A DNA stretch of 64,000 nt from Rubellimicrobium roseum (GTDB taxonomy: Bacteria; Pseudomonadota; Alphaproteobacteria; Rhodobacterales; Rhodobacteraceae). Each line of letters begins with the position of its first letter. Position 1 is the stretch's first letter. The position numbers and the translations under genes are program-made. Below, piece after piece: positions 42,843 through 59,230 of the stretch. The notes below the pieces were generated by a model, which saw only the letters and a list, made by a program, of their open reading frames with translations, searched no databases and was not told where the DNA came from. Location: NCBI RefSeq assembly GCF_006152145.1, contig NZ_VDFV01000005.1, positions 124,001 to 188,000 on the forward strand, written 5' to 3'.

Positions 42843-44240
42843 TCAGTCCCCCGCGCCGATCGACTGGAGCACGCGGTCGAGCGCCCGGCCCTGCTCGGAG
42901 CCGCGGGCGGGGGCGTCGTCCACGAGGTTGTAATAGGCGGTGGGGTCGTAGACCGCCACGGCGAGCCCGAGGTTCTCCACCGTGAGCAGGCCTGCGGCCG
43001 AGAGCACCTGATAGCTGGCCAGCACCTCGTCGATCTCGGCCCCCGCGAGGTTGGTGCGGGCGTCGAGGAGGTCCTGCTCGGCCTCCAGCACGTCGAGCGT
43101 GGTGCGCGCGCCCAGGGTCGCCTCCTCGCGCACGCCCTCGAAGGCGGACTGCGCGGCGCGGACCTGCTCCTGGAAGGCGACGAGGGTGGCGCGGGCAACC
43201 TCCAGGTTGGAATAGGCGATGCTGACGCTCTGCACGATGTTGCGCGAGGTTTCGATGAGCTGGGCGCGGCTGGCGTCGCGGTCGGCCTGGGCCTGGCGGA
43301 TCTGCGAGGCGCGGGCCCCGCCCGAGTAGATCTCGCCGCCGGCGCTGAGGCCGATGGAGGCGCCCAGCGTGCTGCTGCCGCCATCCAGGCTGTTGTTGAT
43401 CGAGGGCCGCGCCTCGAGCTGCACCTGCGGCCGCAGGCTGGCCTCGGTGGACAGGATGGCGATCTCGTTGGCGGCGACCTGGTGCTGGGCCTGGCGCAGC
43501 GCCGGATGCGTGCGCAGGGCGATCTGCACGGCCTCGTCCAGCGTGGCGGGCACACGGGCGGGGGCGGCGGGCTGGAGCTGGCCGGGCGCGCGGCCCACGG
43601 CGGCGCGGAACGCCGCGACAGCCTGCGCGAGCCCGCCTTGGTCGGCCACGAGTTCGCTGCGCGCGGCGGCGAGCTGCGCCTCGGCGAGCGCCACGTCCGT
43701 GCGGGTGATCTCGCCCACCTCGAAGCGGTCGCGCGCGGCCTGCAGCTCCTGCCCGATGACGCGGACGTTGCTTTCGCGCAGGCTCACGAAGGCCGAGCGG
43801 CGGCGCACCTCCTGGTAGGCGGTGACGATCTGCTCGAGAACCTGGCGCTCGGTGTCGCGCAGCCCCTCGCGGGTGGCGAGTACCACCTCCTTCTGGAGGT
43901 CGATCGTCAAGCGGCGCTGGCCGCCGTCATAGAGCGTCAGCGAAGCCAGGAGCGACAGGGAGGCGCTGTCCGAAACGGTCGAGGTGTCGCCGGTCAGGTT
44001 CAGCCCGTCCTCGTTGCGGGTGAAGCTGCGGGCGAGCTCGGCCTGCCAGCTCAGGACCGGGCGCAGGCTGGCAACGGCCTGGGCCACGTCCTCGTCCGCG
44101 GCGCGCAGCACGGCGCGGTTCTGCTCGATGAGGCCGGAGCTCTCGTAGCCGAAGGCCAGCGTGTCGGCCAGCGTCTCGGCCCGGACCGCCGTGGATCCGA
44201 GCAGGAGAGCCATCAGGGCCCCGCGGATGATGTGTCGCAT
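42843..44240 (-). CDS. tolC: TolC-family outer-membrane efflux protein
   Basis: 465 residues with a signal peptide (about 22 residues, AVRA). Two TolC repeats of coiled-coil helices and beta strands: TLADTLAFGYESSGLIEQNRA, TDVALAEAQLAAARSEL near 200, LDEAVQIALRTHPALRQAQ near 248 and TTLDVLEAEQDLLDAR near 370. Outer-membrane duct for type I secretion or RND efflux. ATG at 44240 with GGGAGCGAC before it. Confidence 0.9.
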   Translation of the reverse strand: MRHIIRGALMALLLGSTAVRAETLADTLAFGYESSGLIEQNRAVLRAADEDVAQAVASLRPVLSWQAELARSFTRNEDGLNLTGDTSTVSDSASLSLLASLTLYDGGQRRLTIDLQKEVVLATREGLRDTERQVLEQIVTAYQEVRRRSAFVSLRESNVRVIGQELQAARDRFEVGEITRTDVALAEAQLAAARSELVADQGGLAQAVAAFRAAVGRAPGQLQPAAPARVPATLDEAVQIALRTHPALRQAQHQVAANEIAILSTEASLRPQVQLEARPSINNSLDGGSSTLGASIGLSAGGEIYSGGARASQIRQAQADRDASRAQLIETSRNIVQSVSIAYSNLEVARATLVAFQEQVRAAQSAFEGVREEATLGARTTLDVLEAEQDLLDARTNLAGAEIDEVLASYQVLSAAGLLTVENLGLAVAVYDPTAYYNLVDDAPARGSEQGRALDRVLQSIGAGD

Positions 44241-44280
44241 GTCGCTCCCTCCGCTCGTCCCGTTTGTGCCCCGCGCGCCG

Positions 44281-44934
44281 TCAGAGGACGAAGGCCGAGG
44301 CGCGACCGAAGCCGGGCAGCACGGGGGCCCCGGCATTGAAGGCGTAACGCCAGTGGACCTGGCCGCCTTCCTTGCGACCGATCCGGGCGGTGCCCAGGTT
44401 CTCTTCAGCGAAAAGGGCGGCGATGCGCCCGTCTTCGGCAAGCTGCGCGAGGAGCGCATCGGGAATCACCTCGACCGCGCCCTCGATCAGGATCACGTCG
44501 TATGGCGCCCCCGCGGGCGCCCCTTCGGCCAGGGGACCGACCTGGACGCGGGCCCGGGAGGCCCCCTGCCCGGCCAGCGCCGTCGAGGCGGCCTGCGCCA
44601 GGGCGGGGTCCTCCTCCAGGGCGATGACCTCGCCGCCCATCCGCGCGATCACGGCGGCGCCGTAGCCCAGGCCCGTGGCCAGGTCGAGCACGCGCTCGCC
44701 GGGGCGGATGTCGAGAGCTTCGAGGAACTTGCCCAGCGTCCGCGGCTCGAGCACCACGCGGCCGGGGGCGACAAGGAGGTTTTCGCCCAGGTAAGCGGCC
44801 TCGCGGCGCGATTCGGGCACGAACTCCTCGCGCGGGACGTGCAGCATGGCCTCGATAATCGGGAAGCGGGTCACCTCGGACGGGCGGACCTGCGTGTCCA
44901 CCATCATCGTGCGGCGGGTCTGGAAATCGGACAA
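44281..44934 (-). CDS. Protein-L-isoaspartate O-methyltransferase-like
   Basis: 217 residues from TTG at 44934. SAM-methyltransferase with [17 protein letters not shown]-terminus, PREEFVPES near 45, motif [19 protein letters not shown] near 88. In Rhodobacterales this PCMT-like protein typically precedes tolC. The first ATG (44907) would remove residues conserved in relatives (SDFQTRRT), so the TTG is preferred. The repair activity on isoaspartate is not certain for this subgroup. Confidence 0.8.
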
Positions 44935-45107
44935 GGGGGGAACGCTCCGGTGTCTCGGCTTGCGAGGAGTGATGGCACAGGGGCGCGGCCGGGGCAATCG
45001 GGGCCGCGCGCGCCTGCCCTTTAGGCCCGCGGACGCGTGGCGTCCATGTCATGCCCGAAGATCATTATGGATTTACGGCCCCGGCGGGAGAACCACGTCC
45101 CTGCGGC

Positions 45108-45180
45108 GGCGAGTTGGTGGAGAGCTTGTGCCGCGGATTGCAAGCCCGTGCCGACCGGGTCGACTTTGGCACTCGTCTCC
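45108..45180 (+). pseudogene. Decayed tRNA-Cys-like sequence
   Basis: This plus-strand stretch aligns without gaps to the intact minus-strand tRNA-Cys at 45450-45523, with 16 differences in 74 positions (about 78 percent identity). The acceptor stem still pairs (GGCGAGT/ACTCGTC) and the anticodon loop still reads TTGCAAG with GCA. The T-loop has lost its invariant TTC (now GTC), and the T-stem and anticodon stem each have a mismatch. The final CCA is lost (CCC). It is probably non-functional. Confidence 0.75.
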
Positions 45181-45449
45181 CTCACGCCCTAAGCCAAGGC
45201 GGGCCATGCCAATCACCGGCAGTTTCCGGAGATCACGCGGATTGGAGGGCGCCTCTAGGCCAAGGGGCGCGTCACGGTGCAGGATCCTGTCCGTCAGACG
45301 CCAAGGTCTGCATCTGTAACGCGATTGAGAGCCGCTTCTCGGCCCGCAGCACGGCCGGATCGGGCGCCTTGGTGACTCCTGAAGGATCAAGTCCAGATTG
45401 GCTACCAAAGCCAAGCGCTCGGCCGGATGGTCTGTTCTTCAAGGAGTAA

Positions 45450-45523
45450 TGGAGGCGAGTACCGGAATCGAACCGGTCTACACGGATTTGCAATCCGCTG
45501 CGTAACCTCTCCGCCAACTCGCC
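45450..45523 (-). tRNA. tRNA-Cys (GCA)
   Basis: 74 bases including encoded CCA. Acceptor GGCGAGT/ACTCGCC with discriminator T, anticodon loop TTGCAAA (GCA), T-arm ACCGG-TTCGATT-CCGGT. All arms pair. Discriminator U73 is the normal identity element for cysteine. Confidence 0.96.
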
Positions 45524-46129
45524 GTCGCCCTGCGGGGATTAAGGGTTAGGGTAGTACTGGTCAAGTGGCGATCCATCCGGGAGCCTGGTTGTCGTTACGT
45601 GCTCGCTCTGTTCAACGCGGCATCACGCGCGCTTAGCACTCTTGCATGATCTGCCGCAGCACAGCCGCGCGTTTGCTGACCGTTGCCTTGAACTGCAGCC
45701 CGCTTCACTTCGGTCAGGATGCGCGATCCGGACGAGTGATGGGCACGCAGGTGGAGCACGTCGTTCGACACCCTGCGGACCGACGAGCGAAGCCTTCGCC
45801 CTACCCGTCGTGGCAGACCCGGCGCGCTCGGTTGGTGCGGTTATGGCGCCGGACGCTCTGGCCGATTGGCTCATAGCCATCGCACGCGATCGCGTGGGCG
45901 CTGGCCGGCCGGTGCCTGCATACCCGGAAGCCCGAGCGGTTCCTCTCCAGCGACGGACCCAGCCGGGAGACCGAGCAGATCGCGTGGCCGGCCGATCTGG
46001 CTTCGGGGAACACCAGGTTTCGAGGCGAACGCACGCGCCTGGACCGTGGCATTCTGGAGAACGCCATCGTCCTCCTCACGGTGGTGCTGGCGTGAGATAG
46101 CCCACGCAGACAACTCGCCTTGCGCACCC
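45524..46129. other. Gap upstream of the IS3 relic
   Basis: About 600 bases without a gene I can support. Less GC-rich than the genome in places, with stops in all frames or short unrecognisable frames. It probably contains the tRNA-Cys promoter next to 45524 and further decayed mobile-element DNA. A plus-strand frame ending in ILENAIVLLTVVLA at about 46092 may be part of the degenerate transposase. Confidence 0.4.
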
Positions 46130-46365
46130 AGGAGCGCCGGTGCAGACGCGGCCGGGTCGAACGGCTCATGCGCGCCACCGCCGTATCCGGGCGCTCGCAG
46201 CGTGACACTGCCGGCCCTGCGCAATCAACCGCCGCCATCCTCTGTTGAGCGCCGACCCTGCTCGACCGACGGTTCCAAAGCGCCCCGGTTTGGGCGAGGC
46301 TGGACGGCCGACATCACGTGCCTCGCAACTGGCGAGGGTTGCCTCCACTTCGCCACCGTGTCCAG
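46130..46365 (+). pseudogene. IS3-family transposase (OrfB) relic
   Basis: Fragments of an IS3 OrfB in at least two plus-strand frames. GRVERLMRAT matches the region before the integrase core. A stop interrupts before APTLLDRRFQSAPVW. After one shift, GWTADITCLATGEGCLHFATV matches the start of the DDE domain (usual D-I-T-Y...GW/LY form, first catalytic Asp kept). The rest of the catalytic domain is absent. It abuts the thioredoxin remnant at about 46370. No terminal inverted repeats recognised. Confidence 0.7.
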
Positions 46366-46371
46366 CGAGCG

Positions 46372-46533
46372 GGCAAGCTCGCCCGGGTCATCGGTATCCA
46401 TATTGACGATGAAGCGGATGGCCTCGTAGGCCGGGGTCTCGTCGCGCCGCGCGTCGAGAACTCGCTCCTGCGCGCGGCTGGTGCTGAACTGCGGCGCCCG
46501 GAAGTCGAGGAGGATGACCTCGCCTTTGGCCAT
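46372..46533 (-). pseudogene. Thioredoxin-like gene remnant
   Basis: Reads MAKGEVILLDFRA then FSTSRAQERVLDARRD and ETPAYEAIRFIVNMDTDDP. This parallels the thioredoxin-domain proteins that follow CcdA, in which the second block is WCxxCRAQERV. Here both active-site cysteines are gone (QFSTS), and similarity stops near 46375 where the IS3 relic begins. Loss of the catalytic pair and of the C-terminal half indicates a dead gene. Confidence 0.7.
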
Positions 46534-46599
46534 GACCTACTCCGCAGGTTGGGGGCGTAGAACTGCCGCTTCGTCTCGGAGGCGGCCGGCAGGGCAAGC

Positions 46600-46985
46600 G
46601 GCAGGAGGGTGCGAGGGCGCTGTAGGCAAAAGCGAGGACGACCGCCGCCACGCCCAGCACGAAGGTGGACATGACGGCGCCGGCGCGCCCGAGGTTCTGC
46701 CCTTGGGCGGCAAGCACGATGGCCGCGCCGAGCGTCGGGCCGATGCGGGGATTCCAGACCGCACCCAGAAGCACGCCGCCATCCCGGCGAGCGCCGGTTC
46801 CACGCATCTACCCAGCGCAGGCAGGAGGAGCGCGAGTCCGACGGTTATCAAGACAAGCGCCACCGAGGCCCAGGACGACGACGAAAGCGCTTTGCCGGCC
46901 GCGAGCACGAGGGGTAGCACCGGCAGGATGCAAGGACAGATCAGGATCTGGAGCCCGCGCTGCGCTCCAAGGATCGGGTCCGCGC
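46600..46985 (-). pseudogene. CcdA-like cytochrome c biogenesis gene remnant
   Basis: Two pieces of a CcdA/DsbD-type membrane protein in different frames. The first (about 46985-46830) reads [19 protein letters not shown] and then GLALLLPAL. The second (about 46790-46610) reads LLGAVWNPRIGPTLGAAIVLAAQG and RAGAVMSTF, matching the usual GAVWSPCVGPTLG segment with the Cys replaced by Arg. The total is only about half the normal length, so an internal deletion as well as a frameshift is needed. It follows doxX and precedes the thioredoxin remnant. Confidence 0.7.
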
Positions 46986-47465
46986 TCCTGCGGTGACCGC
47001 CGGCGATCTCATGCGGCCATCCAGCCCCAGGAGCGCGTCGAGCGACAGGGCGCCGGGCCCGAAGCGGATGAGGGCAAGGAGGCAAGCCGCCCAGAGGCCA
47101 TGCGTCATCCAGGCCTCGGGATAGACGAAGGTCTGGATCACCAGCGTCATCGTCAGGAGCCCTAAGGCCGAGAGCCGTGTCATCAGCCCCAGCACGAGCG
47201 CCACCGACAGCAGGTGCTCGGCCAACGTGGCAAGGACAGCGGCGACGGCCGAAGGGATCAGAGGCAGGGCGTACTCGTGCTCGAAGAGGTACCAGGTCGA
47301 CTCGGCGATCTGCCAGCCGTCCACCTTGGTGCGGGCCGAGGCCCAGAACACCGCCGCAGGGAACAGCCGCAGTGCAAGGCCGACCGCCGCATAGGGCAGC
47401 CGGTCACCCCAGTTGTTGAACCGGCGGAGGAACTCGAGAGGGTCGCGGGACGCAGGGGTCATCAA
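46941..47465 (-). CDS. DoxX-family membrane protein of the bufferin operon
   Basis: 174 residues with four hydrophobic segments (for instance [19 protein letters not shown] and [24 protein letters not shown]). DoxX family; in bufferin-type operons it follows DUF2063, possibly a quinone-linked or redox partner. ATG overlaps the bufC stop by four bases. The last 25 residues (from about GLDGRM) look unlike the family and overlap the ccdA remnant, so the 3' end may have been altered by the deletion there. Confidence 0.8.
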
Positions 47466-48238
47466 GGATGATCCTTCATGGGCGGCAGGGCGGGCGCAAC
47501 GAGCACCCCGGCGCTAACGAGCCGCGCCAGCAGCGGCGCGGGATCGTGGCCGGGCTCGACGCTTGCGGCGGCTGCGAAGGCGAGGAGCGTGTCGCCGTCA
47601 CGCAACTGGGAAAGGAACGCCGCGTCTCCGGGCGAAATGGCCTGGGCGATCACGTCGAGGCGGCGGTCGCGCAGGACCAGGGCCGTCTCGGGGTTCACGG
47701 CGGCGACCGGCCGCGCCGGCGCGCCAGGCCGGTTGGCGCGCCAGATCGACACGATGGCGTAGCACGACGCGACGACCTGCACGGAGGGATGAAGCCCGAG
47801 CCGCGCCGTGTCGGGCTCCTGCGCGAGGCGGACAAGGTCGGCGGGGGAGAGGGGCTCGGCGTCGCCGGCGTGGTAGGCGAGGCCGAGGGCGGTTTCGAGC
47901 CGCGCCACATCGGGGAGGTAGGGGAGCGCGGTCGCTGGGGGGAATGCCTCAAGGAACTGGGGAAAGGCTCCGCCCCAGGCGAGCAGGACCGGAGATTCCG
48001 GCGGATGCGCCTGGGCGAAGGCGCGGGCCATCGCCGAGAAGAACCGCTCCCCCACCAGCCGCCGCACCACGGGGAAGCGGGTGGCCAGCGCCTCCGAGAG
48101 GCCATGTGCGACGTTGTTCCGATGGACGGCGAAGCGGCGGGCGGCCTCGGCGGGGTCGCGCGCGGTCACGCCCGGGGGCAGCGCCCCGGTCCAGACGCCG
48201 GATCGAAAGGCCGCGACGAGATCAGGATGCGAAGGCAA
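47462..48238 (-). CDS. bufC: DUF2063 protein, bufferin maturation partner
   Basis: 258 residues. N-terminal DUF2063 (HvfC/BufC) domain of about 95 residues: [48 protein letters not shown] and [16 protein letters not shown]. The C-terminal domain is a RiPP-recognition-like partner region. Works with the DUF692 enzyme to modify the precursor. Overlaps bufB by 17 bases and doxX by four. Confidence 0.87.
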
Positions 48239-49073
48239 GTAGGCCTCCCCGCGCGCGGTCGAGCGCCGCGCGCGCGCGCTCGGCCTCGCGCAGCAGCGTT
48301 GCGAAGGACGGCACGTCGTTGTCCCATTCGATCAGCGTGGGCCTGGGCCCTGTCCGCTCCAGTATGAAAGCGAAGAGATCCCAGACCGGATCGGCGACGG
48401 GGGTGCCATGAGCATCAATGAGGAGCGGCCCGGAGGGCAGCGCCTCCTCGAAGAAGCCGCCCAGGTGGATCTCGCCCACCGCATGGAGCGGGAAGGCGTC
48501 GAGGTAGGCGTGCGGGTCGGTCCGATGGTTCGTGGCCGAGACGAAGACGTTGTTGACGTCGAGGAGGAGCCCGCAGCTCGTGCGGCGCGCGACTTCGGCC
48601 AGGAACTCGGTCTCGGGAATCGTGGACTGGGCGAAGAGGACGTAGGTCGAGGGGTTCTCGAGGAGCATCCGCCGTCCGAGCGCGGCCTGCACCTCGTCCA
48701 CGTGGTCGCAGACGATCCCCAGCGTCTCCTCCGTATAGGGGAGCGGCAACAGATCGTTCAGGAAGGTACCCTCGTGGCTGGACCAGGCGAGGTGCTCGGA
48801 GAAGCTGTCGGGCTCGTAACGGTCGCAGAGCCGCCGCAGCCGCGCGAGGTGGGCGGCGTCGAGCCGCCCCGGCCCGCCGATCGACAGGCCCACGCCGTGG
48901 ATCGACATGGCGCAATCGTCGCGCAGCGCGGCGAGTTGCGCGTGCGGTCGTCCGCCTTCGCCCATGTAGTTCTCAGCGTGGACCTCCCAGAAGCCCAGGG
49001 CGGGCCGGCTGCTGACGATGTCGGCGAAGTGCTCGGCCTTGAAGCCCAGGCCGGGGGCGTCGGGAAGCGGCAT
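48222..49073 (-). CDS. bufB: DUF692 multinuclear iron enzyme, bufferin maturase
   Basis: 283 residues, TIM-barrel MNIO family (MbnB/BufB/HvfB). Likely iron ligands in order: EVHAENYMG near 30-38, [11 protein letters not shown] near 57, EHLAWSSH near 93, LLENPSTY near 136, [17 protein letters not shown] near 167, GEIHLGG near 200, DAHG near 218 and IEWDND near 248. Family members oxidise cysteines of a precursor peptide; bufferin enzymes make thiooxazole groups. The gene directly follows the precursor gene. Confidence 0.92.
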
Positions 49074-49127
49074 GGCGGGTCCTGTGCGGAAAAGGAGGGG
49101 GCGGCCCCGGGGACCGCCCCTGAGGCT

Positions 49128-49442
49128 TCAGGCCGAGGGCAGGTCGCGGTCGAGGGCCTCGAGGCTGCCCATACGGGCCGTGCCGTCGGCCTGCGCGGGT
49201 AGCTCGATGGTGGCGCAGGTCCCGGCGGGCACGAGGGTCCAGGCGTTGCCCTGGTAGTCCACCACAGACGTGCCGGCGCAGGTCGTGCCGGGGCCCGCGG
49301 CGCAGTCGTTCTCGCCGGCGAGCGACACGCCGAAACACTTTTCCATCTCGGCCTCCTCCTGGGCCTGGGCGGCGGAAGCGGCCATCGCAAGGGCCGTGGC
49401 AAGCGTGGCGGTGAGCTGGAGGGTGGTCGTCATTCGGGTCAT
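49128..49442 (-). CDS. bufA: DUF2282 bufferin-type RiPP precursor
   Basis: 104 residues. Signal peptide of about 27 residues (ASAAQAQ). The core holds four cysteines at 36, 47, 55 and 76 in [21 protein letters not shown] and VPAGTCA, with VDYQGNAW between the third and fourth, which is the class-defining DUF2282 pattern. In bufferins two cysteines become thiooxazoles and the peptide binds copper in the periplasm. A 28-residue tail follows the last Cys. ATG at 49442 is preceded by AGGGAGA. Confidence 0.9.
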
Positions 49443-49494
49443 CACGGTCTCCCTGAGGGATGGAAAGGACCTGTCGCGGTCCTCGGCAGGGCTT

Positions 49495-49520
49495 TTCGAG
49501 GAGCGTCCGGCTTCCGTTAC
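49495..49520 (-). promoter_or_regulatory. ECF promoter of the buf operon
   Basis: On the minus strand, GTAACG (49520-49515), 16 bases, then CGAA (49498-49495). The same architecture heads the sigma/anti-sigma pair on the other strand. It matches the GTAAC-N16-CGAA promoters I recall for Caulobacter sigma-F. Leader to the bufA ATG about 45 bases. Confidence 0.8.
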
Positions 49521-49578
49521 GCTGGTCACGACAGCGTGATGCCCGGATCATGGAAGCGCAGAAGGGTGGTTGCCGCCT

Positions 49579-49604
49579 GTAACATCGGGCCTGTTCCGGC
49601 CGAA
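49579..49604 (+). promoter_or_regulatory. ECF promoter of the sigma/anti-sigma pair
   Basis: GTAACA (49579-49584), 16 bases, then CGAA (49601-49604), followed 9 bases later by the ATG of the sigma gene. Transcription should start about 5-9 bases after CGAA, so the message would be nearly leaderless. The sigma factor would drive its own gene. Confidence 0.8.
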
Positions 49605-49613
49605 GGGACTGGC

Positions 49614-50162
49614 ATGATGCGGGACACAGAGAGCGATTGGGCCGCCCTCCTGCGGGCGGCGAAGGCGGGGGACGGGCGCGCCTACGCCCGCTTCCTGCGC
49701 GAGGTCGCCCCTGTCCTGAGGGGCATCGTCCGGGCCCGCGGCCAAGCGCTGCCGGTCCATCACCACGAGGACATCGTGCAAGAGGTTCTTCTCGCCATTC
49801 ACGCCAAGCGCCATACCTGGGACGCGGGTCGCCCGCTGCGCCCTTGGCTTTTCGCCATCGCGCGCCACAAGGTGGCCGACGCCTTCCGGGCTCGCGGCGC
49901 CCGGCTCCATCTTGACATCGCGGACCGCGCCGAGGTGCTCCCCGCCGAGCCGGGACCTGACCCGGACGCGGCGCGCGACGCCGCACGCCTGCTCGGGCGG
50001 CTCGATCCGCGCGCCGCCGAGATCGTCCGCTCGGCCCATCTCCACGACGAAGCGCCCGCCGAGATCGGGCGGCGGCTGTCCATGTCGGAGGGGGCGGTCC
50101 GAGTGGCGCTCCACCGGGCTCTCAAGCGCCTCGGCGCAATGACCCAGGGATCGCCGCGATGA
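49614..50162 (+). CDS. sigF: ECF sigma factor, SigF-like
   Basis: 182 residues from ATG at 49614 (49617 also possible). Region 2: DIVQEVLLAIHAKRHTWDAGRPLRPWLFAIARHKVADAFR at about 62-101. Region 4: DEAPAEIGRRLSMSEGAVRVALHRALKRL at about 144-172. Together with the downstream DUF1109 gene this is the metal-stress SigF/NrsF module. A longer start at 49536 would place the promoter inside the gene, so it is rejected. Confidence 0.87.
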   Translation: MMRDTESDWAALLRAAKAGDGRAYARFLREVAPVLRGIVRARGQALPVHHHEDIVQEVLLAIHAKRHTWDAGRPLRPWLFAIARHKVADAFRARGARLHLDIADRAEVLPAEPGPDPDAARDAARLLGRLDPRAAEIVRSAHLHDEAPAEIGRRLSMSEGAVRVALHRALKRLGAMTQGSPR

Positions 50163-50794
50163 GAACCGAGGACCTGATCGAGCGCCTCGCCCGGGAGGAG
50201 GAATCCGCCGTGTCGGTCCGATCGGGCGTCGTGGCCGCCTGGACGCCGGCGTTTCTCGCCACGCTGGTCATCATGCTTGTCGGCTGGGGCCTGCGGTCCG
50301 GGCTCGGGCTGGCGCTCGCCGACCCGCTCGTGTTGGCTAAAATCGCCCTGCCCATGCTCGCGGCTGCGATGGCGCTGGCCGGCGGCTTGGAGCTGTCGCG
50401 CCCCGAGGGCCACGCCACGCGGGCGTTGCCGGGACTTGGAGCCCTTGGCGTCGCATGGCTGGGCCTGCTGACCCTCGACCTCGCCATTACCCCGCCCGAG
50501 ACCTGGGACGAAGCCCTGCGCGGCCAGACGCGGCTCGCCTGCCTGCTCTCGATCCTGGCGCTGGCCGTGCTGCCGACCGCCGCCCTGCTCGCCGCCCTGC
50601 GCCGCGGCGCCAGTCCCCGCCCTGCGCTCTCCGGCGCCCTTGCCGGTCTGGCCGGCGGGGCGGGCGCGGCCGCAATCTACGCCTTTCACTGCCCCGAGGA
50701 CGCCCCGCTGTTCTACGTCACTTGGTATGGCACGGGGATCGTGATCGCTTCCGCGGCGGGCGCCGTCCTAGGATCGCGCTGGCTACGCTGGTGA
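50159..50794 (+). CDS. nrsF: NrsF-like (DUF1109) anti-sigma factor
   Basis: 211 residues. N-terminal cytoplasmic stretch of about 40 residues (MRTEDLIERLAREE), then six hydrophobic segments: TLVIMLVGWGLRSGL region, then several Ala/Leu-rich helices, ending with YFVTWYGTG-like YVTWYGTGIVIAS and GSRWLRW. DUF1109 proteins hold SigF-type sigma factors at the membrane and release them on heavy-metal stress, reportedly through periplasmic cysteines. Cys near residues 124 and 178 (ACLLS, FHCPED) are candidates. Overlaps the sigma gene by four bases. Confidence 0.87.
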   Translation: MRTEDLIERLAREEESAVSVRSGVVAAWTPAFLATLVIMLVGWGLRSGLGLALADPLVLAKIALPMLAAAMALAGGLELSRPEGHATRALPGLGALGVAWLGLLTLDLAITPPETWDEALRGQTRLACLLSILALAVLPTAALLAALRRGASPRPALSGALAGLAGGAGAAAIYAFHCPEDAPLFYVTWYGTGIVIASAAGAVLGSRWLRW

Positions 50795-51373
50795 TGGCGT
50801 ATCAGGTCGGTCCACCGACAGAGCCATATGACCTAGGTCTTCTGTCCCTAGATGGCTGGGCCTCAACCGTCCGCCGATAGTCTCCGGGAGGCGGCGTACG
50901 GCTTGATCGCCGTCGAGGTCCGGCAGCGGGTTCAGGATCTCTATGGCAAGCACCGCCCACGCGTCGCTCGACCGCGATGTTCCTTCGGGCCGGTTCGCCG
51001 TCTCGGGCTCCCAATTCTCCTTCCTCGACATGGTCGACGCAGTCAGGGCCGCCCACCGACCAGTCGCTTCAGCTCGAGTCGCTAGGTCCGGTCGAGGAAC
51101 CGCGCCGGTAGATGGAGGACACCACCGCCCGTAACTCCAGCCCCTACGAGCGCTACCAGCCCTTCATGCTGACCATGCCGCCGCTGCACAACATCCAGAG
51201 CGACCGTCACGATGGGCTGCGGCACGAGCCCTTTCACGATTTCGCGCCATGCGCGTTTCAGGAGGTCTGGCACGACCCACCGCATCCTCGTCGCCAGCTC
51301 CCAAGGCGGGGTTGCCCTGCGAAAGCTTCTGCGCTGCCCTGGCCCGTGTGGGGCCGCCGTTTGTCTGGGATTT
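50795..51373. other. 579-base gap between nrsF and the kdp operon
   Basis: No gene recognised on either strand. Contains two CTAG-bearing words near 50833 and 50850 and unassignable short frames. Probably old insertion or island debris ending at the tRNA-like fragment that follows. Confidence 0.4.
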
Positions 51374-51397
51374 GGTTGCGGGGGCAGGGTTTGAACT
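51374..51397 (-). other. tRNA-fMet 3'-end-like fragment
   Basis: On the minus strand it reads TTCAAAC, CCTGC, CCCCGC and AACCA, which is the T-loop, T-stem and acceptor end with CCA of initiator tRNA-Met. The rest of a tRNA is missing (no CAT anticodon arm upstream). tRNA 3' ends are the usual targets of tyrosine integrases, so it may be an old attachment-site remnant. Its last 13 bases recur at 59798-59810 in the same orientation. Confidence 0.6.
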
Positions 51398-51466
51398 CTG
51401 GCGAACGGAACCGATGGTCTGGTCAGGCTGCGTGCGCCGGCTCGGCCGCTGGTCACGTCCGACCCA

Positions 51467-52171
51467 TCAGATGTGATCTGGTCCCTGCGAGCGAAACCTG
51501 TAGCCCACCCCTGGCTCGGTGAAGATGTAGCGCGGGTCCGACGCGTCGTCGCCGATCTTGGCCCGAAGCTGCCGCACATAGACACGAAGGTACTGGCTGT
51601 CCTCGGCATGAGCCGGGCCCCACAGCGTCCGCAGGATCTGTCCCTGGGTGACCAGCCGCCCGGCATGGCTCGCGAGGAGCCAAAGGAGGTCGAACTCCCG
51701 CCGAGTGAGCCTGACCGGCTCGCTGGCTTTGGTCACCGTATGCGCGGCCGCGTCGATCCGCAGGTCTCCGATCTCCAGCACCGAGGGGCTTGGGGAGGGC
51801 TCGCCCCTGTCCCGCAGCAACGCACGCAGGCGGGCCAAGAACTCCCTGGTGCCGAAGGGCTTGGTGACGTAATCCTGCGCGCCTGCGTCCAGCGCCGCGA
51901 CCTTTCCGCCCTCGTCCGAGCGGACCGATAGGACCAGAACGGGCATCTGCGACCATTCGCGGATCCCTCTCAGCACGGCCAGGCCATCAGCATCCGGGAG
52001 CCCGAGGTCGAGGATCACGGCCGCGGGCTGCTCGTGGGCGGCGGCGCGGATGCCGTCGCGGGCGGTGCCGGCCTCCACCACCTCGTAGCCCTCGGACTCC
52101 AGCGCGATGCGCAGGAAGCGACGGATCGGCGCCTCGTCGTCCACGATCAGAATGCGCGCAGCTGAGGTCAC
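51467..52171 (-). CDS. kdpE: Response regulator KdpE
   Basis: 234 residues, OmpR family. Receiver: ILIVDDEAPIRRF, phospho-Asp in VILDLGLPDADG near 55, Thr/Lys pattern VLSVR and YVTKPFG. Winged-helix DNA-binding domain at about 130-228 (LTRREFDLLWLLASHAGR, RVYVRQLRAKIGDD, PRYIFTEPGVGYRF). Activates kdpFABC under K limitation or osmotic stress. Overlaps kdpD by four bases. Confidence 0.93.
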   Translation of the reverse strand: MTSAARILIVDDEAPIRRFLRIALESEGYEVVEAGTARDGIRAAAHEQPAAVILDLGLPDADGLAVLRGIREWSQMPVLVLSVRSDEGGKVAALDAGAQDYVTKPFGTREFLARLRALLRDRGEPSPSPSVLEIGDLRIDAAAHTVTKASEPVRLTRREFDLLWLLASHAGRLVTQGQILRTLWGPAHAEDSQYLRVYVRQLRAKIGDDASDPRYIFTEPGVGYRFRSQGPDHI

Positions 52172-54864
52172 GAGGTCAGGTCTTCCTGAAATGTTGGCAG
52201 AGCCAGCACCATGCGCGTGCCCGTCCCGTCCTCCCGCACGGCCTCGGCGTGGATCGTGCCACCCTGGGCCTCGATGAACCCTCGGGCGATGGCGAGGCCC
52301 AGGCCTGTCCCGGCCCGGTGGCGGTCGCTGTCCTCGAGCCGCACGAACATCCCGAAGACGCGCTCGCGTTGCTCGGGCGGGATGCCGGGCCCGTCGTCGC
52401 TGACCGACAGCTCGACTTCGGAACCCAGCGTTCGCGCGGCGATCCGGATGGGGCGTCCCTCGGGTCCGTACTTGGCGGCGTTGTCGAGAAGGTTCACCAG
52501 CACCTGCTCCGTCAGGGTGAGATCGACATCCACCATCGGCAGGTCCGCAGGCAGGTCGACCTCTATGGGGTACCGCTCCAGAGCCCGCCGGAGCCGATGC
52601 CGAGCCTGCCCGACGAGATCGGCCACGTCGACCGCAATCGGTCTTGGCCGCAGGGCCCCGTGCTCAAGTCGCGTCATGTCGAGGAGGTTCTGGACGTAGC
52701 GATCGAGCCGCTGCCCTTCCTCGCGGATTGTCTCCGCCAAAGTGAGCCGCGCCTCCGGCGCGAGGGAGCCCGCGTCCTCGGCGAGGCTGTCGGCCGCTCC
52801 GATGATGGTGACGAGCGGCGTCCGCAGGTCGTGGCTCACCGAGGACAGGAGCGCGGTCCGGAGCCGCTCGGTCTCGGAGGCCAGCTGCGTCCTCGAGAGC
52901 TCCTCGGCGAGCCGCACCCGTTCGAGCGCCAGGGCGACCTGGTCGGCCAGGGAATCGATCAGCGGCCGGTCGAGAAGCGCAAGCCGCGCATCGTCCCCTA
53001 GCCGCAGGCCCAGGACCGCAAGGCGGCGGTCGCCTGCGCGGACAGGTAGGAAGTACCAGTCGGCCGTGGGCAGTGTCCCGGTCCCTCTTCCTGTGGCCTC
53101 GCCCTTGTCCCAGGCGAAGCGCGCGGCGGTCATGTCGCGGGTCTCGATGCGATCCTCGGGCGGGAAGCCTCCCACGACCGCGAGACCCCCGTCGTCGTCC
53201 GGAGCCAGGAGCAGCGTGTCGCAGCCGAGCGTCCCGGCCACATTGCTGACAATCGCCCAGACCACGTCGTCACGCGTGGCCCCCGAGGCCACGCGGCGGC
53301 CGAAGTCGTGGAGCTTGCCCAGCCGGTCCACGATCGCTCGTTGCGCCTGCACCCGGGCGCGAAGTTGGGCAGCGAGGTTTCCAGTGACGGTCGAGGCCAC
53401 CAGGAAGAGAAGAAGGGTAAGAAGCTCTCCCCGTTCGGCGACCGTGAAGGTGTGGCGCGGCTCGACGAAGAAGAAGTTGTGGGCCAGGAAGCCCAGGGCG
53501 GCGGCCAGGACCGCAGGTCCGATGCCCCGGATTGCCGCCACCGCAACCACCGCCGTCATGTAGATGAGCGACAAGCTCGGTGCGGGGATCAGGGTGTCGA
53601 TCGCCCAGGCGGCCGACGTGGCCAACGCGATCGCGAGCGGGGCCGCGGCATAGACGCCAAGGCCTTCGCGGGTCCGCCTCGGCGGCCACTCGGTCCGTCG
53701 ACCCGGCCTGGGTGCGCTGCCCGATGCGATGGTGATCTCGAAGTCGCGCCCTTGCCTTAGCAGGTCGCGCGCGAGGGTCCCGGCTCCAGCCCAGCGGCCC
53801 AGCCGTTCCAACCACGTCTGTGCCCCTGGGCGGCCGAGGACGATCCGGCGCACGTTGTGACGGCGGGCAAAGCTCAGCACCTCGGCGACGGCATCGTGTT
53901 CGGCCTCGATCGTGGCCAGCTCGGCCCCCAGGCGCTCGGCGAGCCGGAGGAAGTCGGCAATGCGGTCCTTGGCCTCGGAGGTCAGGCGCTCGGCTTGCGA
54001 GGACAGGACCGAGAGGGCGATCCACTCGGTCCGGGCGCGGTCGGCGGAGCGCTTGGCCACGCGGATCGCATCGCGCGTCACGGGATCCTCGGTCACCACG
54101 ACGAGAAGACGATCCTGCGCGGGCCAAGGGCCGGGGATCGCGTGCGCGGCCATGTGCTCGCGCAGTTCCGCGTCCACCCGGTCGGCGGCGGCCCGCAAGG
54201 ACAGCTCCCGCAGGGCCACCAGGTTGCCTTTCGCGAAGAAGGCCCGCACGGCGCGCGCCGCTTGGTCCTGCACGTAGACCTTCCCCGCGTGCAGGCGCTG
54301 AAGCAGCTCCTCGGGTGGCAGGTCGATGAGCTCGATCTCGTCGGCCTCGTCCAGCATGCGGTCGGGCACGGTCTCGCGCACGCGGATGCCGGTGATGCGG
54401 GCCACTGTCTCGTTCAGCGTCTCGACGTGCTGGACGTTCAGTGTCGTGTAGACGTCGATCCCGGCCGCCAGCACCTCCTCGACATCCTGCCAGCGCTTCT
54501 CGTGGCGGCTGCCCTCGACGTTCGTGTGGGCGAGCTCGTCGATCAGCGCGAGGTCGGGGCGTCGGGCGAGCAGCCCGTCGAGATCCATCTCGGTCAGGAT
54601 GCGGCCCTTGTAGACCAATGGCCGGCGCGGCAGCACGGGCAGGTCACGGAGCATCGCCTCGGTCTCGTGGCGACCATGGGTCTCGACCACGGCCGCCGCC
54701 ACATCCACGCCCTCGCGCTGACGCGCCTGTGCTGCCTCCAGCATGGCGTAGGTCTTGCCGACGCCCGGGGCCGCACCCAGGAACACCTTGAGCCGTCCCC
54801 GCCCCTCCCGCGCCGCGGAGGCGAGGAGCGCGTCGGGTTCGGGGCGCAGCATAGGGTCGGCCAT
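52168..54864 (-). CDS. kdpD: Osmosensitive K+ sensor kinase KdpD
   Basis: 898 residues. KdpD N-terminal domain with Walker-type GAAPGVGKTYAM near 31-42, a USP-like domain (about 250-370), four membrane helices (about 400-500), a GAF-like region, the H-box SVSHDLRTPLVT near 670, and an HATPase end (NLLDNAAKYGPEG, DDGPGIPPEQR, GTGLGLAIARG). Full length. ATGA overlap with kdpE. Confidence 0.95.
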   Translation of the reverse strand: MADPMLRPEPDALLASAAREGRGRLKVFLGAAPGVGKTYAMLEAAQARQREGVDVAAAVVETHGRHETEAMLRDLPVLPRRPLVYKGRILTEMDLDGLLARRPDLALIDELAHTNVEGSRHEKRWQDVEEVLAAGIDVYTTLNVQHVETLNETVARITGIRVRETVPDRMLDEADEIELIDLPPEELLQRLHAGKVYVQDQAARAVRAFFAKGNLVALRELSLRAAADRVDAELREHMAAHAIPGPWPAQDRLLVVVTEDPVTRDAIRVAKRSADRARTEWIALSVLSSQAERLTSEAKDRIADFLRLAERLGAELATIEAEHDAVAEVLSFARRHNVRRIVLGRPGAQTWLERLGRWAGAGTLARDLLRQGRDFEITIASGSAPRPGRRTEWPPRRTREGLGVYAAAPLAIALATSAAWAIDTLIPAPSLSLIYMTAVVAVAAIRGIGPAVLAAALGFLAHNFFFVEPRHTFTVAERGELLTLLLFLVASTVTGNLAAQLRARVQAQRAIVDRLGKLHDFGRRVASGATRDDVVWAIVSNVAGTLGCDTLLLAPDDDGGLAVVGGFPPEDRIETRDMTAARFAWDKGEATGRGTGTLPTADWYFLPVRAGDRRLAVLGLRLGDDARLALLDRPLIDSLADQVALALERVRLAEELSRTQLASETERLRTALLSSVSHDLRTPLVTIIGAADSLAEDAGSLAPEARLTLAETIREEGQRLDRYVQNLLDMTRLEHGALRPRPIAVDVADLVGQARHRLRRALERYPIEVDLPADLPMVDVDLTLTEQVLVNLLDNAAKYGPEGRPIRIAARTLGSEVELSVSDDGPGIPPEQRERVFGMFVRLEDSDRHRAGTGLGLAIARGFIEAQGGTIHAEAVREDGTGTRMVLALPTFQEDLTS

Positions 54865-54873
54865 GGCCGGACC

Positions 54874-55464
54874 TTAGTTCGAGGCCAGGCCGGCGGCGAG
54901 CGGGAAGGCTTGGTCGAGCGCCAGGTTCGTCAGGAGAACGTTGACGCGCGGCTCGCCGTAGAGGCCGAGCCAGCGGCCCTCGACGTGATCCGCGATCAGC
55001 GCCCGCACGTCCGTCGGGTCGGCGCGTCGGGCTGCGGCGATCCGCTCCGCCTGACCCAGCGCGTTCGCGGGCGAGACATCGGGATCGAGGCCGGAGCCGG
55101 ACGTGGTGACCGCGTCGATAGGCACCTCGTCCGGGTTCAGGCCGTTCTCGGCGGCGAAGGCCTCCCGCCGGGCCTGCACATCGGCCACAAGCTGCGCCGA
55201 GGTCGGCCCGAGGTTCGTGGCCCCGGTCCCGGCCGCATTCCAGTCCGAGGCCGACGCACGCGGATGGAGGTAGGCCGTGCCCACGAATGACTGGCCGATG
55301 AGCGAGGAGCCGATGACGACACCGTCGCGCTCGAGGAGCGAGCCGCGGGCGGCGGACGGGGCGACTGCCCCCATGATCCCGGTCAGGGTAAGGGGATAGA
55401 TGAGGCCAGTCAGGAGCGTGAAGAAGACCATCATCATGATGGCTGGACGGAGTTGGGCGAGCAT
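54874..55464 (-). CDS. kdpC: Potassium-transporting ATPase subunit KdpC
   Basis: 196 residues. One N-terminal membrane helix (MMMVFFTLLTGLIYPLTLTGIMG region) and a periplasmic domain with GSSLIGQSF, RASASDWNAAGTG, DAVTTSGSGLDPDVSP and HVEGRWLGLYGEPRVNVL motifs. Stabilises the KdpA-KdpB complex. Confidence 0.95.
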   Translation of the reverse strand: MLAQLRPAIMMMVFFTLLTGLIYPLTLTGIMGAVAPSAARGSLLERDGVVIGSSLIGQSFVGTAYLHPRASASDWNAAGTGATNLGPTSAQLVADVQARREAFAAENGLNPDEVPIDAVTTSGSGLDPDVSPANALGQAERIAAARRADPTDVRALIADHVEGRWLGLYGEPRVNVLLTNLALDQAFPLAAGLASN

Positions 55465-55473
55465 GGTGGCCTC

Positions 55474-57513
55474 TCAGGCGAGGTGGAGGGCGACAAGGAC
55501 GAGGTCGATGGCCTTGATGCCAACGAAGGGCACGACCAGGCCTCCGAGCCCGTAGACGAGCATGTTGCGCCGCAGGAGCGCGGCGGCCGACGCGGGCCGG
55601 TAGCTCACGCCCCGGAGCGCGAGCGGCACGAGCGCGACGAGGATGAGCGCGTTGAAGATGACCGCCGACAGCACCGCCGACTGGGGGCTCGCAAGCCGCA
55701 TCACGTTGAGCGCGCCCAGGCCCGGATAGGCCGCGACGAAGATCGCGGGCAGGATGGCGAAGTACTTGGCCACGTCGTTGGCGATGGAGAAGGTGGTGAG
55801 CGCGCCGCGCGAGATCAGGAGCTCCTTGCCGACCATCACCACCTCGATGAGCTTGGTGGGGTCGCTGTCGAGGTCGATGAGGTTCCCGGCCTCCTTGGCG
55901 GCGGGCGTCCCGGAGTTCATCGCCACGCCCACATCGGCCTGCGCGAGCGCGGGCGCGTCGTTCGATCCGTCGCCGCACATGGCGACCAGCCGGCCGCCGG
56001 CCTGCTCCTTGCGGATCAGCTCGAGCTTCATCTCGGGCGTCGCCTCGGCCAGGTAGTCGTCCACCCCGGCCTCGGCGGCGATGGCGGCGGCGGTGAGCGG
56101 GTTGTCCCCCGTGATCATCACCGTGCGGATGCCCATGGCGCGGAGTTCCGCGAAGCGCTCGCGCATGCCGGGCTTGAGCACGTCCTTGAGATGCACCGCG
56201 CCCAGGATCGCCGCGCCATCCGCCACCAGCAGCGGCGTGCCGCCCGATCGGGCGATGGCCTCCACTTGGCCCGCGAGCGCAGGAGCAGGCGCCTGGCCGG
56301 TAAAGCGGACCACCGCATCCGCCGCGCCCTTTCGGACCTGCCGCCCATCCGCGAGGTCAATCCCTGAGAGGCGCGTCTGCGCCGTGAACGGGACCGGCAC
56401 CCCGCCTGCGGTCGCGGCGAGGTCGCGGCCCAGCAGCTCGCGGGCCTTCTCCACGAGGCTCTTGCCCTCGGGCGTCTCGTCGGCGAGCGAGGCGAGGAGC
56501 GCGGCCTCCGCAAGGCGGCGCAGATCGACGCCCGGAGCGGGGATAAGTGCGTCGGCCATGCGGTTGCCGAAGGTGATCGTCCCTGTCTTGTCGAGGAGCA
56601 GCGTGTCCACGTCGCCTGCGGCCTCTACCGCGCGGCCCGACTTGGCGATGATGTTGGCCTTCACCAGCCGGTCCATGCCGGCGATGCCGATGGCCGACAG
56701 AAGCCCGCCGATGGTCGTCGGGATCAGCGTGACGAAGAGCGCGCCCAGGATCACCACGGGAATCGTCAGCCCCGCGTAGCTCGCAAAGGGCTGGAGCGTC
56801 ACCACCACGACGAGGAAGATGAGCGTGAGACCCGCCAGCAGGATGTTGAGGGCGACCTCGTTGGGGGTCTTCTGCCGCTCGGCTCCTTCCACGAGCGCGA
56901 TCATGCGGTCGAGGAAGCTCTTGCCCGGCTCGGCGGTGACGCGGATCACCAGCCAGTCGGAGACCACGCGCGTGCCGCCCGTGACCGAGGAGCGGTCGCC
57001 GCCCGACTCGCGGATGACGGGGGCGGACTCGCCGGTGATGGCGCTCTCGTCCACGCTCGCCACCCCGCGCGCCACCTCTCCGTCCGTGGGGATGAGGCTG
57101 CCCGCCGGGACGAACAGGAGGTCGCCCTGCCGGAGCCGCGACGATGGCTTGGGCGTCCCGAGGCGCGGGTCGTCGTCGGCGCCGTCGAGGACGTTCACCA
57201 TCGTCTCGGCCTTGGTGGCGCGCAACGTGTCGGCGCGGGCGCGGCCCCGGCCCTCGGCCAGCGCCTCGGCGAAGTTGGCGAAGAGGACGCAGAGCCAGAG
57301 CCAGGCCGAGAGGTGGAGGGCGACCCAGCCGCCTTGCGTCCCAGCCGCAATGTCACGGAGCGAGAGGATGGTGGTGAGGAGCGCCACGACAGCGGTGACG
57401 AAGATGACCGGATTGCGAGACAGGGCGCGCGGGTCCAGCTTGGCGAAAGTGGCGCGGAGGGAACTGGTATAGAGGCCATCGAGGGCCGGCGAGACTAGGG
57501 GATTCTTGAACAT
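55474..57513 (-). CDS. kdpB: Potassium-transporting ATPase subunit KdpB
   Basis: 679 residues, type IA P-type ATPase. Phosphorylation motif [12 protein letters not shown] near 304-315, actuator [14 protein letters not shown] in AITGESAP near 159, hinge [18 protein letters not shown] near 512. Seven membrane helices. Couples ATP hydrolysis to K movement through KdpA. Confidence 0.96.
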
Positions 57514-57544
57514 GGCTTTCGTGCCTTGAGAGTGATGGCGCCGG

Positions 57545-59230
57545 TCAGAAGGTCTGGCCGGCGAGGCGCACGGTCTCCTCGGCGATGGGGCCGAGGGCGA
57601 GCACGGGGAAGAAGGTGAGGGCGCCGAGGATCACCACGCTCAGCACGAGGAGCGTCACGAAGAGCGGCCCGTGCGTCGGGAACGTGCCGGCGGTGGCGGC
57701 GGCCTTGGGCTTGCGGATCAGGCTCCCGGCGATGGCCAGCATCGGCACGATGAAGGCGAAGCGCGTGAGGATCATGATGATCCCGAGCGCGGTGGTGTGC
57801 CAGGGCAGCGCCGCCCCGAAGCCGCCGAAGGCCGAGCCGTTGTTCCCCGCCGCCGAGGTGTAGGCGTAGAGGAGCTCGGAGAAGCCGTGAGGTCCTGCCT
57901 CCTGCACAGCGGTCACGGCCTGCGGGGCGACGACCGCGACGGCGCCGCCGATCAGGAGGCCCACTGGCGTGGCCAGGAAAGCGAGGACCGCCAGCGTGAC
58001 CTCGCGCCGTTCGATCTTGCGGCCGAGGTACTCTGGGGTACGGCCGACCATGAGGCCCGCGAGGAACACCGCGAGCACCACGTAGAGGAGCATCCCGTAG
58101 AGACCCGAGCCCACGCCGCCGAAGATCACCTCGCCGGTGGCCATGTTCGCCATCTGCACAAGTCCGGATAGCGGCATGAAGCTGTCGTGCATGGCGTTGA
58201 CCGAGCCGTTCGACGCCGCCGTGGTCAGGACCGACCACATGGCCGAGAGCGTCGCGTCGAAGCGCTGCTCCTTGCCCTCCATGTTGGTGCCCGGCCCGAG
58301 GAGCGGATTGCCGGCCGCTTCGTAGAGCTGGACCACCAAGAGGCCGGTCACGAGCAGGACGCCCATGGCGGCGAAGATGGCCCAGCCCTGCCGCCGGTCC
58401 CCAACCATCCGGCCGAACAGGAACGGGAAGGCTACGGGAATGAGCAGGATCGACAGGGCCTGCACCATGTTCGACAGGATCGTCGGGTTCTCGAACGGAT
58501 GCGCCGAGTTCACGCCGAAGAAGCCGCCGCCGTTGGTGCCGAGTTGCTTGATGGCGATCTGGCTGGCCGCCGGGCCCCGCGCGATCACCTGGGTCGCCCC
58601 CTCCAGGCCGGTGGCGGTGACGTGGCCCAGGAGCGTCTGCGGCACGCCCTGGAGGACTAGCACGAGGGCCACGATGATCGAGAGAGGCAGCAGCACGTAG
58701 AGGATGGAGCGGGTCAGGTCGACCCAGAAGTTGCCCAACGTCCAGCCCTTCGGCCGCGCAAAGCCCCGGATCACCGCCACAGCCACGGCCATGCCGGTCG
58801 CGGCGGAGACGAAGTTCTGGACCGTCAGGCCGAGCATCTGGCTGAAATAGCTGGCCTGCGCCTCGCCCGAGTAGGCCTGCCAGTTCGTGTTCGACACGAA
58901 GCTCGTGGCCGTGTTGAAGGCCAGGTCCGGCGACATCGGACCGAGGCCGTCAGGGTTGAAGGGCAGCACGTGCTGGAGCCGCAGGATCGCGTAAAGGATG
59001 GCAAAGCCCACCGCATTACAAGCGAGGCACGCCAAGGCGTAGGCGCCCCAGGACTGCTCCCGGTCGGGGTCGATGCCGGAGAGGCGGTAGATGCCACGCT
59101 CGATGGGCGCGAGGACGGGCGAGAACCAGGTCCGCCCGCCCTCGTAGACGCGGATCATGTAGTCGGCGAGCAGCCAGCCCCCGCCCGTCAGGGTGCCCAG
59201 GAAGAGGATGTAGCCGAGAAGGTCGCGCAT
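57545..59230 (-). CDS. kdpA: Potassium-transporting ATPase subunit KdpA
   Basis: 561 residues, ten helices, K channel-like subunit. Four selectivity loops: [17 protein letters not shown] near 105-121, [21 protein letters not shown] near 227, the [14 protein letters not shown] region near 340 and the [13 protein letters not shown] region near 460. Confidence 0.96.

Follow-up and report, generated by a model that had tools for sequence, protein, structure and literature searches.

Gene content and layout of the locus

The 64-kb stretch of Rubellimicrobium roseum DNA analysed here (contig NZ_VDFV01000005.1, 64,000 nucleotides; hereafter referred to as the window) carries a bufferin operon, bufABCD with doxX as its fourth gene, next to the sigma factor and anti-sigma factor genes sigF and nrsF (Table 1). 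The genes and their layout, like the promoter sites and the conserved residues described below, are direct observations. When the curated Pfam cut-offs were applied to all six proteins, all six passed: BufA scores 85.9 bits against DUF2282 (cut-off 22.4; scored without its last residue), BufB 349.9 bits against MNIO (cut-off 25), BufC 87.4 bits against DUF2063 (cut-off 27.2), the DoxX protein 57.9 bits against DoxX (cut-off 23.6) and the NrsF protein 152.4 bits against NrsF (cut-off 26.8), while SigF reaches 39.6 and 38 bits for sigma-70 regions 2 and 4 (cut-offs 24 and 25.7), respectively. A preliminary description of this DNA had described a four-cysteine DUF2282 bufA, a DUF692 bufB, a DUF2063 bufC and doxX as contiguous, overlapping and facing a SigF/NrsF pair. 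The coordinates and the Pfam results agree with this as regards contiguity on the minus strand and the facing sigF-nrsF pair on the plus strand. Overlaps exist between bufB and bufC (17 nt), between doxX and the bufC stop codon (1 nt) and between sigF and nrsF (4 nt), whereas bufA and bufB are separated by a spacer of 54 nt. The intergenic region between bufA and sigF comprises 171 nt.

Assignment of BufB to the bufferin maturases is further backed by its score of 380.8 bits against the NCBIfam model MNIO_BufB (cut-off 310). Moreover, its stretches IHG, DLLP, EN, LDVNN, IHxxG, DxHG and E-x-D align with those of a solved MNIO structure (PDB 3BWW), and several of them we take to be iron-binding. 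Within bufC, ARAGORN calls a tRNA-Ala on the opposite strand (48117–48209, plus strand), which is probably spurious.

The named relatives of the locus are the best 80 of at least 541 stretches encoding a BufB relative; they are thus chosen by BufB likeness, and several of their contigs end inside the locus. The complete layout, bufABCD with divergent sigF-nrsF, is present in 60 of these 80, which argues that it has not arisen by chance. Eight further loci contain bufABCD with sigF elsewhere or nrsF undetected, six contain bufABCD with sigF undetected, three contain sigF-nrsF with bufABCD not all detected, and in the remaining three neither set is complete. The nearest named BufB relatives among the matches listed belong to Frigidibacter, Gemmobacter and Paracoccus. 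At the level of genomes (61 including the own one, some incomplete; E 1e-3), DUF2282 was detected in 32 and NrsF in 10, nine of which also have DUF2282; in 23 of the 32 bufferin genomes NrsF went undetected. The switch thus appears to be optional, in agreement with the published account of Buf1 clusters, among which sigma factor and NrsF genes occur (PMC12452194). Two of eight genomes of the genus, the own one included, have a bufferin gene. The locus arrangement varies even inside the genus: a same-genus genome (G001) encodes a long-tailed BufA, has its NrsF gene on the same strand at a distance of ~3 kb, and gives no match to the ccdA-trx genes discussed below.

Table 1. Features of the bufferin locus; positions are those of the window.
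Feature	Position	Strand	Description
bufA	49128..49442	-	Buf1 (DUF2282) bufferin precursor, 104 aa; Cys 36/47/55/76; 28-residue tail
bufB	48222..49073	-	MNIO (DUF692) maturase, 283 aa; above Pfam and NCBIfam MNIO_BufB cut-offs
bufC	47462..48238	-	DUF2063 protein, partner of BufB; starts with TTG
doxX	46941..47462	-	DoxX-family membrane protein; ATG start
sigF	49614..50162	+	ECF (extracytoplasmic function) sigma factor
nrsF	50159..50794	+	NrsF-family anti-sigma factor; conserved Cys128 and Cys178
Putative promoter of bufABCD	49495..49520	-	sigma-F type, GTAAC-N17-CGAA; 52 nt before bufA ATG; motif match
Putative promoter of sigF-nrsF	49579..49604	+	sigma-F type, GTAAC-N17-CGAA; 9 nt before first sigF ATG; motif match
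Decayed ccdA remnant	46622..46953	-	DsbD transmembrane family; two frames; match to relatives
Decayed thioredoxin remnant	46363..46602	-	in-frame stop; CxxC gone; match to relatives

Promoter sites and the NrsF cysteines

Exact matches to GTAAC-N14–18-CGAA occur twice in the window as compared to an expected 0.25; of 100 shuffled sequences, 2 reach two matches. Both lie between bufA and sigF, one per direction and correctly oriented. Their spacing equals that of the sigma-F promoter GTAACC-N16-CGAA of Caulobacter (PMC3511200). The 52 nt between motif and start codon at bufA fit the transcription start mapped at -61 for the Caulobacter gene (PMC3511200), whereas the 9 nt at sigF imply either a nearly leaderless transcript or a later start codon. 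Among the 63 relatives whose sigF-nrsF pair is divergent, a match to the strict motif (N16–18) is directed toward bufA in 39, toward sigF in 44 and toward both in 32; with the relaxed motif, in which CG[AT] is accepted as -10 element, these numbers rise to 56, 63 and 56, respectively. The remainder of the same loci, together 507,350 bases, yielded 1 strict and 17 relaxed matches.

The two cysteines of NrsF are likewise conserved. In a 73-row alignment including the window, the residue at Cys128 is cysteine in 71 of 71 and that at Cys178 in 72 of 72 non-gap rows. By position and family, they are probably equivalent to C131 and C181 of Caulobacter NrsF, where exchange of the two conserved cysteines leads to higher expression of the regulon (PMC3511200).

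The resemblance to Caulobacter crescentus extends to the whole locus. There, genes CC3254–CC3257 code for DUF2282, DUF692, DUF2063 and DoxX proteins in the same order and form one transcript, adjacent to sigF-nrsF (CC3253–CC3252), with GTAAC...CGAA promoters and the two NrsF cysteines (PMC3511200); judging from the gene numbers, the two Caulobacter transcripts would diverge as well. Differences are a second bufferin operon in Caulobacter, as compared to one DUF2282 gene in the genome studied here, the decayed ccdA-trx genes behind doxX in the window, and the length of the precursor, 93 residues as listed versus 104 (compared by length alone). Buf1 clusters with sigma factor and NrsF genes are also a recognised type in the survey of Antoine et al. 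2025 (PMC12452194), sharing the core of precursor, MNIO, DUF2063 and DoxX proteins. A further related system is that of the EGKCG-type captophorins (fontiphorin, oxazolin, gonophorin), in which an MNIO and a DUF2063 partner install thiooxazoles on precursor cysteines, the precursors, however, being repeat proteins with Lys-Cys motifs rather than DUF2282 (PMC13097082). We therefore read the locus, with high confidence, as a Buf1 bufferin operon of the ordinary alphaproteobacterial kind, controlled by a Caulobacter-type sigma-F/NrsF switch. Such a system is already known: work on Caulobacter has described the gene set, the promoter motif and the cysteines of the anti-sigma factor, and has shown that chromate, cadmium and copper act as inducers (PMC3511200, PMC8224329). 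The only unusual points appear to be two wrecked redox genes with which the operon ends and a mixed ancestry of its parts.

The BufA tail and the decayed genes behind doxX

The preliminary description had seen here a complete metal-responsive system for a ribosomally synthesized and post-translationally modified peptide (RiPP), whose precursor might be distinguished by the 28 residues following its last cysteine. A Buf1 operon with a SigF/NrsF switch is upheld by the protein families, by the gene order, by the two promoter sites and by the conservation of both cysteines in NrsF. The tail, in contrast, finds no support as a distinguishing mark among the precursors compared. Tails were counted in 108 four-cysteine precursors including the one in the window, that is, in 110 loci (L001, L006–L114) minus L093, which gave no bufA match, and L043, whose bufA frame is broken. 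The commonest tail measures 17 residues (33 of 108), and lengths range from 9 to 70, with L025 set aside (misread, 104). Tails of 27–28 residues occur in 23 precursors, i.e. in 22 of the 107 others, and an end of the RD-x-P type in 42 of 108, window included. In an alignment of 46 rows, consisting of the window and 45 hand-picked of the 107 other precursors, all four cysteine columns are invariant (46 of 46). The same holds for two tail residues common to long and short forms, a Gly (position 66 of the aligned piece) and a Leu (position 68). The tail is thus best regarded as the variable part of a shared element rather than as a new domain. At its other end, BufA begins like a signal peptide, with a hydrophobic stretch and then an Ala-rich end ahead of the first cysteine, as judged by eye. 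Much longer tails of 61–70 residues past the last cysteine are found at loci L074, L087 and L034, and L114, as far as can be judged by eye, seems to have a second DUF2282-like frame upstream of 3686, in the interval from sigF to the matched bufA.

Behind doxX, Pfam detects no family in the open frames, and the remnants of ccdA and of a thioredoxin gene (trx) become visible only by comparison with relatives. Using the proteins of L071 as queries against the window, CcdA matches with 64% identity over 61 residues (E 6e-17) and thioredoxin with 48% across an in-frame stop (E 6e-11); the first CcdA piece gives a weak match (43%, E 2e-4). Of its two motif cysteines, the CcdA remnant has kept the first and lost the second, which in relatives is part of WSPCIGP. 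Intact copies are present in the order bufABCD-ccdA-trx-sigF-nrsF in L055 (Tabrizicola), L068 (Rhodobacterales) and L071 (Paracoccus saliphilus), the only ones of the 80 named loci with ccdA-trx behind doxX; L072 has a distant ccdA match, located elsewhere. Like the window, these three operons combine a long-tailed BufA with ccdA and trx directly behind doxX; they differ in having an intact ccdA-trx pair and sigF-nrsF downstream on the same strand. Within the family, the thioredoxin was found in 110 of 295 genomes (E 1e-12), the own genome giving no match. Among the best 30 loci, to which the closer inspection extended, ccdA adjoins in all 30, and three (L118–L120), which may represent the same or close species as L055, L068 and L071, lie within bufferin operons. 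At one of the other 27, L121, the ccdA-trx pair adjoins the gene for subunit III of a cbb3 oxidase (FixP) and that for a 4Fe-4S membrane protein.

The words thioredoxin, CcdA and DsbD are absent from the main texts of Antoine et al. (PMC12452194) and Gadgil et al. A literature search around CcdA, DUF692, DUF2282, bufferins and MNIO, most subscription journals lying outside its coverage, listed 17 of 22 papers; CcdA occurs in three of the 17, once in each, and judging by their titles these three do not deal with bufferins. Neither for a ccdA-trx wreck behind doxX nor for a mixed ancestry of precursor and maturases did we find a published description; we claim no priority for ccdA-trx bufferin operons.

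On the far side of the locus, beyond nrsF, follow kdpE-, kdpD-, kdpC-, kdpB- and kdpA-like potassium-uptake genes (51467–59230, minus strand).

Proposed function and ancestry of the operon

From homology we infer modification and export of BufA, binding of copper and induction by metal. That is, periplasmic metal, most likely copper, would act on the two NrsF cysteines, upon which NrsF would release sigma-F to transcribe bufABCD as well as its own operon from the two facing promoters. BufB together with BufC would modify BufA, probably by converting Cys47 and Cys55 to thiooxazoles, whereas Cys36 and Cys76 probably form a disulphide. BufA would be exported by Sec and bind copper in the periplasm, with DoxX as a core membrane partner. 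Several observations weigh against this reading. In the whole genome, the exact N17 motif occurs 4 times as compared to 11 times for a reversed control, and it therefore has no predictive force outside the bufA-sigF locus. That sigma-F might control a wider regulon in this genome was considered and discarded: the other two exact sites look like chance, one lying within a resolvase frame and one within an M20-peptidase frame, the latter on the opposite strand. Furthermore, BufC remains below the cut-off of the NCBIfam model HvfC (57.6 versus 142), the DoxX protein below that of HvfX (47.7 versus 80) and NrsF below that of its own model (67.7 versus 300); BufA scores 19.3 against BufA2 (cut-off 60), as is expected of a Buf1 protein. 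Given its altered 3' end beside wrecked genes, doxX might be impaired. Finally, sigF of Caulobacter reportedly lacks strong self-regulation under metal stress and obeys in part another regulator (PMC3511200); self-amplification of sigF is thus the least certain part of the proposed switch.

A main role in the response to some other metal or stress (gold, silver, chromate, cadmium, sulphur stress) instead of copper is unlikely for the operon. The Caulobacter sigma-F regulon does respond to chromate and cadmium (PMC3511200), and in the related gig clusters gold and silver elicit a response, as does copper (PMC8224329). However, copper induces the sigma-F regulon in Caulobacter, a sigF mutant is copper-sensitive, and loss of sigF is reported to harm growth with copper, unlike growth with chromate and cadmium (PMC8224329); in addition, the published description of bufferins is that they chelate copper (PMC12452194). 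Decay of the operon to a non-functional state, to which the wrecked ccdA and trx genes might point, we consider very unlikely. The C-terminus of DoxX (46941–47030, minus strand) exceeds that of seven homologues compared and perhaps runs into the former start of ccdA, so that doxX appears overrun at this end. Yet all six genes are open and pass the family models, and the BufA cysteines and the promoter sites are intact. Moreover, no ccdA-trx pair is seen behind doxX in 77 of the 80 named loci (some contigs end early), and its loss therefore need not matter.

A mixed origin of the locus would complement the reading as a Buf1 operon under a sigma-F/NrsF switch and does not replace it. Discordance between the tree of BufA, on whose side the evidence is weak, and the joint tree of BufB, BufC, SigF and NrsF, together with the ccdA-trx wreck, suggests a hybrid of two operon types: one as in Frigidibacter and Gemmobacter, with divergent sigF-nrsF and a short-tailed BufA, the other of the order bufABCD-ccdA-trx-sigF-nrsF with a long-tailed BufA. 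The window would then unite the long-tailed precursor and the ccdA-trx wreck with maturases and switch of the first type. We give this an even chance. The joint and BufA trees rest on 31 rows, namely the window and 30 relatives picked by hand from the 63 whose sigF is divergent; the joint tree does not include doxX. Rows had been labelled by tail length before these two trees were made, whereas a group of five neighbours was chosen after the BufB tree. In the joint tree of BufB, BufC, SigF and NrsF, the window falls among the short-tailed rows, and its placement with the long-tailed clade is rejected (P value of the approximately unbiased test, p-AU, 3e-5). The BufA tree, in contrast, joins it with the long-tailed rows (98/87), and a grouping with the five BufB neighbours is rejected for core plus tail (p-AU 0.0036). 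The decayed genes, moreover, lie directly behind doxX, exactly where L055, L068 and L071 hold intact copies. Against this stand the 41-residue BufA core, which taken alone gives marginal values (p-AU 0.077 for the five neighbours, 0.046 for all short-tailed rows), and the grouping of the window with all short-tailed rows, which is not rejected for core plus tail (p-AU 0.25). The tree of BufB on its own gives the window's place no starred support (84), and the decayed pieces show no greater likeness to bufferin-linked ccdA-trx copies than to others. Also, a search with the open frames of nine loci (E 1e-3) found no downstream sigF remnant in 43000–46400 or 50790–52200.

More tentatively, and with a probability well below even, some Paracoccaceae bufferin operons may possess their own periplasmic thiol-reducing CcdA and thioredoxin, encoded between doxX and sigF and governed by the same metal switch. 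Such a pair might keep the bufferin cysteines or copper ready for binding or hand-over, and the window would represent a descendant that lost it and mixed this precursor type with the maturases of the other type. If this is true, precursor and maturase are exchangeable between operons. If the redox pair belongs to bufferin function, it would also hint at how a thiooxazole peptide in the periplasm has its thiols kept reduced. Taken together, the locus is one more well-formed example of a copper-buffering system known from the literature, and it shows that the promoter logic of this system is kept across many Alphaproteobacteria.

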